DNA of 64,000 bases, taken from positions 1 to 64,000 of the forward strand of contig JALVFE010000038.1 of NCBI GenBank assembly GCA_027030245.1. Reading direction: 5' to 3'. A program made the translations under genes and the position numbers. Source of the stretch: Melioribacteraceae bacterium. Its GTDB lineage: Bacteria > Bacteroidota > Ignavibacteria > Ignavibacteriales > Melioribacteraceae. Under the pieces are notes generated by a model. It ran no database searches, was not told where the DNA came from, and saw nothing but the letters and a program-made list of their open reading frames with translations. Positions 36,551 through 42,731 of the stretch are shown here, piece after piece (position 1 is the first letter of the stretch; each line of letters starts with the position of its first letter).

Positions 36551-36988
36551 TTAATGACTCAAGTTGGGCAATTGCTACTCAAGGGGATTAAACTTGAGTA
36601 GAGGAAAGTCCGAACACCGCAGAACAGGGTGCCGGGTAACGCCCGGGGGTTGGCAACGCAAGTTGTCAACTACGGAAAGTGCCACAGAAAATATACCGCC
36701 CCGATTTTGTCGGGGTAAGGGTGAAAAGGCAGGGTAAGAGCCTACCGCTCCGGTAGTAATACCGGAGGTCCCTTTTGGGAGTCCCGGGTTTCCCGGGATC
36801 ACGGCAAACCCCACCCGGTGCAAGGTCAAGCAGAAGAGGTTCCGGTTTTTACCGGAAGAAAGTTGTTCGCTTTCAATCTCTTCGGGTAGACCGCTAAATT
36901 CCGACAGTAATGTCGGAATAAGATAAATAATTGCCGTCCCGGTCTTTTCCGGGATTACAGAATTCGGCTTACAGACTTGAGTCATTAA
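36551..36988 (+). ncRNA. rnpB: RNase P RNA
   Basis: This is the catalytic RNA that trims the 5' leader from tRNA precursors. The diagnostic core GAGGAAAGTCCGAACACC (from 36600) and the 3' core ACAGAATTCGGCTTACAG (36957-36974) are both present. The ends pair perfectly: TTAATGACTCAAG (36551-36563) with CTTGAGTCATTAA (36976-36988), a 13-bp helix P1. Several extra hairpins between the cores (for example CCGGTAGTAATACCGG and TCCCGGGTTTCCCGGGA) show a type A RNA with elaborate peripheral helices. At about 438 nt it is longer than the 350-400 nt that is usual. A long open frame on the opposite strand is spurious. Confidence 0.95.
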
Positions 36989-40046: not shown

Positions 40047-40637
40047 ATGATAGCAAAACTTAGCGGAAAAATAATCGAGAAAAAACCTACCGAAATTATT
40101 ATTGACGTAAACGGTGTGGGTTATCAAGTATTTATTTCATTTAACACTTTCGAAGATATTCCGGAACTCAACGAAAACACGGAAATTTTCACTTATCTAA
40201 GCGTAAGGGAAAATTCGCTTACTTTGTTCGGGTTTTCCACAATTTCCGAAAAAAATCTTTTTGAAAGATTGATTTCCGTTAGCGGTGTGGGACCTAAACT
40301 TGCCCAAAGCATTCTATCGGGAATACAAACAAATGAATTGATTGATGCTATTGCATCCGGCGATAAATCGAGATTAGTGGCAATTCCCGGTGTTGGAAGA
40401 AAAACAGCCGAGCGTTTGGTGATAGAACTTAAAGATAAAATGGATTCGGTGGAAACAGAGACGGAACATGTACACGAAGGTGCGGCTTTAATTAAAAACG
40501 ATGCGGTAAATGCCTTAATTGCTCTCGGGTATAATAAAAAAACCGCCGAACTAACCGTGAGAAAAATTCTTGATTTACAACCTGATATTTCACTTGAAGA
40601 GCTTATTAAAACTTCGTTGGGGAATTTAACCAAATAA
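40047..40637 (+). CDS. ruvA: Holliday junction branch-migration protein RuvA
   Basis: A 196-residue junction-binding protein. The OB-fold (about 1-62) is followed by helix-hairpin-helix motifs (SVSGVGPKLAQSILSG and AIPGVGRKTAERLVIELK) and the C-terminal domain III that contacts RuvB (ALIALGYNKKTAELTVRKI). It lies five bases after ruvC. A weak hairpin follows the stop. Confidence 0.96.
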   Translation: MIAKLSGKIIEKKPTEIIIDVNGVGYQVFISFNTFEDIPELNENTEIFTYLSVRENSLTLFGFSTISEKNLFERLISVSGVGPKLAQSILSGIQTNELIDAIASGDKSRLVAIPGVGRKTAERLVIELKDKMDSVETETEHVHEGAALIKNDAVNALIALGYNKKTAELTVRKILDLQPDISLEELIKTSLGNLTK

Positions 40638-40657
40638 ATTCCGTTTTAGAGGTAATC

Positions 40658-40678
40658 GAAAGTAAAACTTTCCCTTTT
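40658..40678 (+). terminator. Weak hairpin after ruvA
   Basis: GAAAGT and ACTTTC (40658-40663 and 40667-40672) form a six-pair stem with a three-base loop, followed by CCTTTTTGGG. It is short and the T-run is interrupted, so termination would be partial. Confidence 0.35.
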
Positions 40679-40713
40679 TGGGTTATTTCAGAAAACAATA
40701 ATAGGACAAAATG

Positions 40714-40742
40714 TTGTAAATAATTCATAAAAAAACTATATT
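40714..40742 (+). promoter_or_regulatory. Promoter-like element upstream of the Nif3-like gene
   Basis: TTGTAA (40714-40719) and TATATT (40737-40742) lie 17 bases apart, a good match to a sigma-70-type promoter. The -10 box is inside an AT palindrome (AACTATAT T ATATAGTT, 40734-40750). Transcription would start near 40750, just before a small open frame at 40758. Confidence 0.5.
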
Positions 40743-40757
40743 ATATAGTTCAAAAAT

Positions 40758-40844
40758 ATGAAATTATTAAACTTTTACACGAACGATAAGAAAATACCAG
40801 AATATTCCGAAAAAAAGGGAATTTATATCAAAATGCACTCCTAA
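40758..40844 (+). CDS. Candidate small leader ORF (28 codons)
   Basis: An ATG at 40758 opens a 28-codon frame that begins MKLLNFYTNDKKIPEY, ends in KMHS, and stops with TAA at 40842-40844. The stop lies in the loop of a hairpin at 40830-40860. There is no ribosome site, but the predicted transcript start is only about eight bases upstream. A short frame ending inside a hairpin looks like an attenuation leader; it could also be chance. Confidence 0.3.
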   Translation: MKLLNFYTNDKKIPEYSEKKGIYIKMHS

Positions 40845-40864
40845 CAAAAGGGTGCATTTTTTTT
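40830..40864 (+). terminator. Terminator-like hairpin touching the Nif3-like start codon
   Basis: AAAATGCACTCC (40830-40841) and GGGTGCATTTT (40850-40860) form an 11-bp stem with an eight-base loop, followed by a T-run of eight ending exactly at the ATG of the next gene (40865). This is a normal terminator shape in an abnormal place, and leaves the gene without a ribosome site. Confidence 0.7.
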
Positions 40865-42001
40865 ATGACTGCGAGAGAAATTATTACATATTTGGAAAAT
40901 TGGGCTCCGCCGGGAGCCGCATGGGAAAGGGACAACGTCGGACTTCAAGTCGGTTCGGCGGATAGAAAGGTAAATAAAATTTTTCTGTGTCTCGAACTTA
41001 CCGAAAATGCACTAAACTCGGCAATTGCAAATAAGTGCAATTTTATTTTCACACACCACCCGTTAATTTTTCATCCCGTTTACAAATTCGATACAGATAA
41101 AAATCCTAAAGCAAAACTTATTCAACAGATTTTGAAAAACGATATAACCGTTTACTCGGCGCATACAAATTTGGATTTTACAAAGAACGGTGTGAGTTTC
41201 GAGCTTGCAAAATCTTTGAGCTTAAAAAATATCCGGTTTCTCAAAAATTTAGACAATACACTAAGCAAATTAACCGTTTTTGTTCCCGAAGAAGCGCTCG
41301 AAAAAGTATCCGGTGCAATTTTTTCTTCGGGCGGCGGGGTAATCGGAGAATATAAGAAATGCAGTTATCTTGTAAACGGAACGGGAACTTTCGAGGGTTC
41401 CGATGAAACGAATCCCGCTGTAGGTACCAAAGGACAATTCGAAAAGGTTCCGGAAATAAGACTGGAGGTTTTAATAAGTAATTGGAATTTACCGGCTGCA
41501 ATTCGTTCAATGATAAAAGCCCATCCATACGAAGAGCCGGCATTTGATATTTATCCGTTAAAAAACACAAATCCGAATTTTGGAATGGGCGCCGTTGGAG
41601 AGTTGGAAAAACCGTTGACAGAAGACGAATTCTTAAATCATGTTTGTAACTCTCTCAAAATTAATAACCTGCGTTATACCTCAGGAAAAAGGAAAAAGAT
41701 TAAAACCGTTGCGGTTTGCGGCGGAAGTTGCAGCGATTTATTGAACGAAGCAATTGGCAGTGGTGCCGATGCGTTTGTTACCGCAGATATTAAATACCAT
41801 ACTTTTCAAGATGCGGAAAACCGTATTCTTTTCATAGATGCGGGACATTATGAAACCGAAATTCTTTCGCTTAATGCGGTTAAACATAAACTCGAAAAAT
41901 TTATTAGCGAAAAGAAGGAAAACATTAAAATATTGAAATATAAAGGGTCTACGAACCCTGTAAAATTTTATAATAAAAAAGGAGAAAACCAAATTGCATA
42001 A
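40865..42001 (+). CDS. Nif3-like dinuclear metal centre protein
   Basis: A 378-residue protein of the NIF3/DUF34 family. The metal site is visible in FIFTHHPLIFHP, VYSAHTNLDFTKNG and, near the C-terminus, FIDAGHYETE. The insert between the two halves (about 130-240) is the PII-like domain of longer members. The family is linked to hydrolase or cofactor-repair roles that are not settled. The start fits relatives (MTAREIITYLENWAP), but it follows a T-run and hairpin with no ribosome site. It overlaps the next gene's start. Confidence 0.92.
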   Translation: MTAREIITYLENWAPPGAAWERDNVGLQVGSADRKVNKIFLCLELTENALNSAIANKCNFIFTHHPLIFHPVYKFDTDKNPKAKLIQQILKNDITVYSAHTNLDFTKNGVSFELAKSLSLKNIRFLKNLDNTLSKLTVFVPEEALEKVSGAIFSSGGGVIGEYKKCSYLVNGTGTFEGSDETNPAVGTKGQFEKVPEIRLEVLISNWNLPAAIRSMIKAHPYEEPAFDIYPLKNTNPNFGMGAVGELEKPLTEDEFLNHVCNSLKINNLRYTSGKRKKIKTVAVCGGSCSDLLNEAIGSGADAFVTADIKYHTFQDAENRILFIDAGHYETEILSLNAVKHKLEKFISEKKENIKILKYKGSTNPVKFYNKKGENQIA

Positions 42002-42731
42002 TCGATTATCAATCTTATACGAATTGCAGTTAATTGACGACCAACTCGATGAACTTGAGGAGTTGCGTGGCGATCTTCCTTTGGCGGTAAACGAATTAAA
42101 AAGCCGTATTTCGTCAATCCAATCCAATATTAAAGAAAAGGAAGACTTAAAAGAAGAACTCCTCGAAAAACGTAAAAACAACGATGAAGAAATCGAAAGG
42201 TTGAACGAAAATTTGAAGAAATTCAAATCGCAGTTATATCAAGTGAGAAACAATAAAGAATACGATGCGCTCACAAAAGAAATCGATCACACCGAAGAAA
42301 AAATCGTTCAGCTGGAAGATGAGAATAAAGAAGCCGAAAATATGATCGATAAATTAAAGTTGGAAATAGAAGAGCTTTTGCCTCAAGTAGAAGAACTGGA
42401 AGCTGAGATTAAGGTAAAAGAGGAAGAATTAAGCAAAATTATAAAAGCCAACGAACGTGAAGAAATAAAATTGCATAAAGAGCGGGAAAAAGTTGCATCG
42501 CAAATAAGAAAATCCGATTACAATACGTATATGCGTGTCAGAAAAGCTTTAAGAGGCAAAGCAATTGCCACTATTTCCCGCGGGGCATGCACAGGCTGCC
42601 ATAATGTAGTGCCGCCTCAAAGACAAATAGAAATTAAAGCGAACAAAAGACTCTATACTTGCGAATCTTGCGGGAGACTTTTGGTATCGCCGGAAATTGC
42701 CGAAGAGGTTGAAAAGAAATTACAGCTATAA
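41994..42731 (+). CDS. Coiled-coil protein with C4 zinc ribbon
   Basis: A 245-residue protein. About residues 5-175 are a long coiled coil (heavily charged, e.g. KSRISSIQSNIKEKEDLKEE). A C-terminal zinc ribbon (CTGCHNVVPP and YTCESCGRLL) binds one zinc. It belongs to the zf-RING_7/CdsZ group that is usually next to nif3-like genes; proposed roles concern RNA or ribosome binding. The start is TTG at 41994 with AGGAG nine bases upstream, overlapping the Nif3-like stop by eight bases. Confidence 0.9.
   Translation: MHNRLSILYELQLIDDQLDELEELRGDLPLAVNELKSRISSIQSNIKEKEDLKEELLEKRKNNDEEIERLNENLKKFKSQLYQVRNNKEYDALTKEIDHTEEKIVQLEDENKEAENMIDKLKLEIEELLPQVEELEAEIKVKEEELSKIIKANEREEIKLHKEREKVASQIRKSDYNTYMRVRKALRGKAIATISRGACTGCHNVVPPQRQIEIKANKRLYTCESCGRLLVSPEIAEEVEKKLQL

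Follow-up and report, generated by a model that had tools for sequence, protein, structure and literature searches.

Tryptophan is the signal sensed by TnaC, which works on Rho termination; leader attenuators of the trp and his type combine a promoter, a leader peptide, an intrinsic terminator and a structural gene. The attenuator of E. coli ampC carries only a minimal start-stop frame, and Jaurin and colleagues are said to have thought in 1981 that it is blocked by an adjacent ribosome, linking expression to growth rate. For TnaC, the relevant portions of PMC8429421 and PMC3902921 describe a short leader peptide and a ribosome that, when held at the stop, alters termination. In E. coli pyrBI, as portrayed in sections of PMC4824070 and PMC5021804, a leader frame and an intrinsic terminator lie just before the operon and there is no alternative hairpin: a closely trailing ribosome prevents the terminator. 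The pyrBI frame measures 135 bp and overlaps the terminator, and pausing is UTP-dependent (PMC4824070, same section). That section also gives two distances: in E. coli, the ribosome represses a terminator 5–8 bp after a stop almost completely, its activity returning by about 30 bp, and in amino-acid attenuators more than 20 bp separate stop and terminator.

Here we describe a leader unit at the start of nif3 in a Melioribacteraceae bacterium; from its sequence and that of its orthologues, we consider it somewhat probable that this unit is a ribosome-controlled transcription attenuator of nif3. Like pyrBI, it joins a leader frame to an intrinsic terminator just before the gene; it has a predicted promoter of its own, no antiterminator is needed, and by geometry a closely trailing ribosome could prevent the terminator in 115 of 134 leaders. 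It departs from pyrBI in that the frame, with a median of 23 codons, mostly ends where the stem lies, and in its target, a DUF34/NIF3 protein. With TnaC it shares a short leader peptide, predicted here; in contrast, tryptophan is almost absent here (0.10 of the shuffled rate) and the terminator is intrinsic. The order of elements is that of the trp/his type, but there is neither a regulatory codon run nor an antiterminator, and stop and terminator are separated by at most 20 nt instead of the more than 20 given in the pertinent section of PMC4824070. Whereas the ampC frame is minimal, nif3 leaders have 10–33 codons.

In the window (the whole stretch of DNA that was analysed, 64,000 nucleotides) the features are as follows:

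Ends at 40637: ruvA, the upstream neighbour of the leader unit
40714..40716, + strand: TTG element (-33 type) of the predicted leader promoter; matches a pattern common in orthologous leaders
40737..40744, + strand: TATATTAT, -7 type promoter element; from the sequence and orthologous leaders
40758..40844, + strand: predicted leader frame of 28 codons with a TAA stop (MKLLNFYTNDKKIPEYSEKKGIYIKMHS); comparable frames in 115 of 134 leaders
40830..40860, + strand: terminator hairpin with TGCAC..GTGCA core and the leader stop at its apex; from fold, orthologues and covariation
40857..40864, + strand: T8 tract of the terminator, reaching the nif3 start codon; from the sequence and the spacing in orthologues
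40865..42001, + strand: nif3 (DUF34/NIF3, with insert domain), the presumed regulated gene; PF01784 E 3.5e-78, TIGR00486 E 4.1e-57
41994..42731, + strand: gene for a C4-type zinc-ribbon protein (Zn_ribbon_9); profile match (scanned from 42012)

A sequence-only reading of this DNA had pointed out a promoter-like pair, a 28-codon frame near the predicted start, a stop inside a hairpin loop and a T-run that meets the ATG of a Nif3-like gene with no ribosome site before it; this anatomy is borne out. The pair consists of TTGTAA (40714–40719) and TATATT (40737–40742) with a spacer of 17, the leader ATG lies 15 nt 3' of the -10 hexamer, and the predicted transcript start falls a few nt 5' of that ATG. 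The leader stop, TAA at 40842–40844, lies at the hairpin apex, and the T8 tract abuts the nif3 ATG at 40865, 5' of which no Shine-Dalgarno-like stretch was seen. The nif3 product matches PF01784 at 263.2 bits (cut-off 23.4) and is therefore a member of DUF34/NIF3. The start of the zinc-ribbon gene overlaps the end of nif3 (41994 versus 42001), and the two genes likely belong to the same operon.

Folding the 126-nt region gives -19.3 kcal/mol and a z of -2.58; 3 of 200 shuffles fold at least as well. A simple terminator scan of the region found none; our guess is that its loop limit of 8 made it miss the hairpin. Promoter-like pairs are at chance level in the single sequence (3 seen, 2.9 expected), as is the promoter pattern with one mismatch across the window (16 matches, 13.9 expected), so that this motif is informative only when leaders are compared.

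Leaders for comparison came from two sources. Of 58 relatives searched by protein, 56 gave a nif3 match, and 55 upstream regions were used, with G057 (start missing) and a second partial copy in G004 left out; adding 86 pattern loci with nif3 and subtracting 6 duplicates gave 135 leaders, 134 of which were scored (L204 is too short). Thus 55 of the 134 were obtained through the protein search and about 79 were selected by the GCAC/GTGC motif. Close relatives were counted separately, there being 105 distinct stem-arm pairs among the 134 leaders, and the named relatives are labelled Melioribacteraceae, Ignavibacteriales and similar.

The promoter-like pair, at chance level alone, yet matches as TTG-N20-TATATT a promoter found across these orthologues: 112 of 131 leaders carry TTG-N18-20-TAT[AT]TT no more than 150 nt from the stem (shuffles: mean 3.4, largest 9, 100 runs), and the spacing is 20 in 108 promoter matches. 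This promoter resembles the -33/-7 type of Bacteroidota, a reading that would place the transcript start only a few nt before the leader ATG and so make the leader mRNA nearly leaderless; Shine-Dalgarno-like 4-mers 5' of the leader ATG are present in 3 of 129 leaders. The distance from T-run to nif3 ATG is 0–10 nt in 132 of the 134 leaders, and 14 and 33 nt in the remaining two. Column counts of orthologous leaders reveal no TA-type promoter element between the hairpin and this ATG, and a separate nif3 promoter within the hairpin was rejected on that ground. Because the terminator is so close to the ATG and no promoter-like composition intervenes, nif3 transcripts must cross the terminator, whether they begin at this promoter or at a gene farther upstream.

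The same two observations lead us to favour an attenuator over a free-standing small RNA. The sequence-only reading had left the choice between these two and had added that leader translation could decide read-through; it is supported in that hairpin, frame geometry and promoter are all kept far above shuffles. A regulatory RNA of ~110 nt that ends at the terminator and acts elsewhere, its frame being incidental, would have a promoter and a terminator of its own, as here, and within the genus the leader is indeed more conserved than nif3: relative to the window, the sister genome G003 (nif3 protein 79% identical) is 78, 88 and 97% identical, ungapped, in three 60-nt bins before the ATG, and 76% identical in nif3 DNA. 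It keeps the 28-codon frame, the stop and the hairpin, a conservation in sister strains on which the sequence-only reading had hinged. Across genera, however, the hairpin is the only well-conserved part of the RNA in the listed leaders (judged partly by eye), the frame geometry is far above shuffles, and neither an Rfam family at cut-off nor the 6S model gives a match; we regard such an RNA as highly unlikely. The 8 weak Rfam matches to region 40600–40900 are all below the gathering score, 6S RNA was rejected as its model has no match in the organism's own genome, and the only Rfam match above cut-off in the window is RNase P. The RNase P RNA lies at 36556–36987, before recJ, and it follows nif3 in three relatives (L083, L089, L090); rnpB has thus moved relative to the nif3 operon.

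Comparison of orthologous upstream regions, which the sequence-only reading had proposed as a check, finds GCAC..GTGC at the nif3 start in 54 of 55 orthologues, and in the 55th (G005) ACACTTCC..GGAAGTGT occupies the same position with a compensated G-C to A-T exchange. A DNA search with the window leader independently gave matches before nif3 in many relatives, mostly to the hairpin alone. Among 164 genomes from the order, 127 contain the strict pattern TGCACN{4,22}GTGCATTTTTT, mostly as a single copy (reversed control: 2). The order motif also has second copies: at 14 of the 100 loci inspected, tblastn detected no nif3. In the organism's own genome a similar hairpin pattern has one match, and a repeat family was rejected for this single copy.

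Above the core, the first pair (+1) is T-A in 80 leaders, C-G in 33, T-G in 21 and anything else in 0 of the 134, and from +1 to +4 the stem is paired in 436 of 536 cells (3' letters re-dealt: mean 347, largest 367). This covariation of stem pairs indicates that the hairpin is under selection as RNA. The ratio of T-G to C-A in the 134 stems is 21:0 at +1, 23:6 at +2 and 3:8 at +3; the excess of T-G supports pairing in the + strand RNA at two positions only, +1 and +2, where it also disfavours a palindromic DNA operator, +3 being opposite. While these outer pairs covary, the GCAC/GTGC core is nearly invariant in the order, also in the 54 of 55 leaders that were not motif-selected, and pairing or structure alone does not account for the invariant TGCAC core. 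Among the 134 leaders, about 79 of them core-selected, a core that stays fixed as its outer pairs covary gives the impression of being recognised by its sequence, which would fit a protein or small molecule that decides read-through, either an RNA-binding antiterminator or a riboswitch recognising the TGCAC stem. We think this quite improbable: other families have entirely different sequences in place of the core (GTGTCCCGCC, TCCTG and GTGTTCC, for example), and the leaders contain no competing structure.

Another observation to emerge from the comparison concerns the leader frame. By our rule (at least 12 codons, ATG within 30 nt of the box, stop -14 to +20 nt relative to the stem core), a frame with its stop at the hairpin is present in 115 of the 134 leaders, far above shuffles (mean 6.0, largest 11) and above shuffles that retain the ATG (mean 15.2, largest 24, 200 runs); in the subset not chosen by motif the rule holds for 46 of 55. 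Some of the 19 leaders without a frame by this rule (G009, L246, L247) have one that runs through the hairpin. The frames usually end at the stem, and terminators at the ends of ordinary genes here have a median distance of 23 nt from the stop, only 10 having been found; the comparison of the two (p 1e-5) is biased, since 120 frames were preselected at 20 nt or less, and only its medians are usable.

Regarding the codons, whose conservation the sequence-only reading had proposed to examine, the frame and the position of its stop are kept, but most of the peptide drifts. In 23 close pairs pN/pS is 0.59, compared with 1.23 when the frame is shifted by one and 0.60 when it is shifted by two; the latter is about that of the true frame, so these values are no proof of coding. 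The corresponding figures are 0.68 (shifted 0.87 and 0.68) for family f10 and 0.72 (shifted 0.78 and 0.71) for family f15. We also observed KFL at residues 12–14 in all 12 scored f10 leaders, with synonymous AAA/AAG, TTT/TTC and TTA/TTG exchanges at the three codons, and [KR][FYL][LIF] within residues 4–14 in 28 of the 74 peptides that represent the order (1000 permutations gave a mean of 9.9 and at most 22) or, before thinning, in 49 of 120 peptides, a motif that was picked after the peptides had been seen. A short peptide core may thus be kept as the remainder drifts.

These features are also what a free-standing micro-gene might display: a functional peptide of ~23 residues, served by a promoter and a terminator of its own, nif3 being expressed by low, constant leakage. 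A terminator after a short gene is expected of an ordinary small gene too, and, besides the KFL core with its synonymous changes and the post hoc motif, the peptides are basic (mean net charge +4.45). Yet pN/pS falls only slightly short of 1 and a shifted frame does as well, the amino-acid make-up approximates that of dinucleotide shuffles (K+R 0.266 versus 0.251), and a separate gene would not require a terminator tied to the nif3 start; a micro-gene is therefore, in our judgement, unlikely. Tryptophan, as noted above, and histidine are scarce in the leader peptides, and no regulatory codon is enriched in them, the largest ratio to shuffles being 1.24 (Ala); amino-acid sensing was rejected for want of such enrichment.

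Returning to the attenuator, we asked which structure might compete with the terminator. In 132 leaders no segment outdoes shuffles in pairing with the 5' arm (mean z +0.32), and the terminator averages -15.1 kcal/mol versus -4.4 for the best competing duplex. A classical antiterminator hairpin was rejected, its complementarity not exceeding shuffles; with no segment competing for the 5' arm, the leader is unlikely to form an alternative RNA hairpin, which leaves direct blocking by the ribosome. From the elements, their spacing and conservation and the selection on the stem as RNA, we infer the following course of transcription, translation and termination. RNA polymerase would start ~110 nt before nif3 at the conserved promoter and make a short leader, whose frame begins a few nt from the predicted 5' end. 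Without a ribosome close behind, the GC hairpin and U-tract would form and transcription would stop before the nif3 ATG, releasing a ~110-nt RNA; if a ribosome stands at the leader stop, inside the stem or a few nt before it, it would cover the 5' arm and block the hairpin, and the polymerase would continue through nif3 and the zinc-ribbon gene. By default, transcription would end at the terminator, and read-through would have to be triggered. The input might be general coupling of transcription to translation, as in pyrBI, or a stall of the nascent peptide at the stop, as in TnaC; the recurring K-F-L core would suit the latter.

We also followed the unit beyond the order, among 245 genomes of the class, 233 of which gave a nif3 match. 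Among 73 near-full-length orthologues outside the order (60 + 13 examined; short or partial matches of other families excluded), 64 have a terminator within 75 nt of the nif3 start (55 of 60 and 9 of 13); in the window, 4 of 50 stretches of 80 nt upstream of ORFs of at least 150 aa score in this way, nif3 among them. The terminator is missing from all six f12 genomes and G319; G242 has a stem without a T-run, and in L392 the terminator is farther upstream. Stem sequences outside the order are family-specific (GTGTCCCGCC, TCCTG, GTGTCCG, GTGTTCC). A leader frame is found in 42 of the 64 hairpin-bearing loci: 33 of 55, where shuffles average 10.3 and reach 19 at most, and 9 of 9; it is scarce in f7 (1 of 5) and f20 (2 of 7).

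Further loci come from family f15, in 11 of which (L270–L274, L276–L280, L292) promoter, frame and hairpin precede a gene for the NIF3 insert domain only, spanning NIF3 residues from about 117–135 on; the stop lies 0–7 nt before the stem in 9 of these 11. The insert domain has weak CutA1 and P-II scores, below cut-off. In the same genomes a second, near-identical TGTCCCGTAATTTT[GA]CGGGACA hairpin is found without nif3 (L290, L291, L293–L295). In other classes of the phylum, such a hairpin is present in 5 of the 11 loci seen. Two are from f38, with a frame that reads through the hairpin, and three from f30 (L376, L382, L385), in which a TGCACG..CGTGCA terminator comes directly after a tRNA-Leu (CAG) gene and precedes nif3, so that a like-placed terminator needs no leader frame before it there.

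The f30 loci bear on a further explanation, namely that the hairpin is the ordinary terminator of an upstream operon, that of ruvA here, and precedes nif3 by chance. Their like-placed terminator stands behind a tRNA-Leu gene, and nif3 is on the same strand as its upstream neighbour. Nevertheless, the unit is constant while the upstream gene changes: that gene is ruvA in 5 of 55 regions and a MacB-like permease in L089; it is ispG in both of the ispG-sized ORFs tested (L064, L083), and an ORF of such size is seen in 9 of 10 loci. (IspG is an Fe-S enzyme.) Moreover, a conserved, separate promoter stands between, and the stem sequence is kept order-wide, yet has a single copy in the organism's own genome. 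We rate this explanation as most improbable.

That the unit accompanies nif3 despite its changing neighbours, and at 11 f15 loci an insert domain that stands by itself, speaks for the attenuator. A broader proposal, which we regard as less likely than not, is a class-wide cis-regulator of NIF3, in which a nearly leaderless micro-frame would encode a peptide with a K-F-L core that would hold or release the ribosome at a stop beside the terminator, the ribosome itself being the antiterminator. Counting against the attenuator are the 19 of 134 leaders without a frame by our rule, the weak coding constraint, the patchiness of the frame outside the order, the f30 terminator behind tRNA-Leu, the likeness to an ordinary small gene with its terminator, and the invariant TGCAC core.

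In the open-access literature we found no paper that joins leader peptide, attenuation and Ignavibacteria, and, among the matches listed, no description of a nif3 leader unit; within the literature searched, this probable attenuator of nif3 is therefore new. According to the relevant part of PMC8469502, DUF34/NIF3 is ubiquitous and of unsettled function, a metal chaperone or insertase having been proposed, and its most frequent operon partner is the zinc-ribbon family COG1579, found beside it in the window too. If the attenuator reading is true, the unit would be a phylum-level example of attenuation without antiterminator or regulatory codons, of a kind missed by screens that use those marks, and the absence of these marks may explain the missing Rfam entry. 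Since the unit is kept before nif3 across the order and much of the class, the signal for read-through would point to the process that NIF3 serves. If the class-wide regulator is real, it follows the NIF3 insert (PII/CutA-like) domain even when this is a separate gene, and its trigger would report on the function of NIF3.
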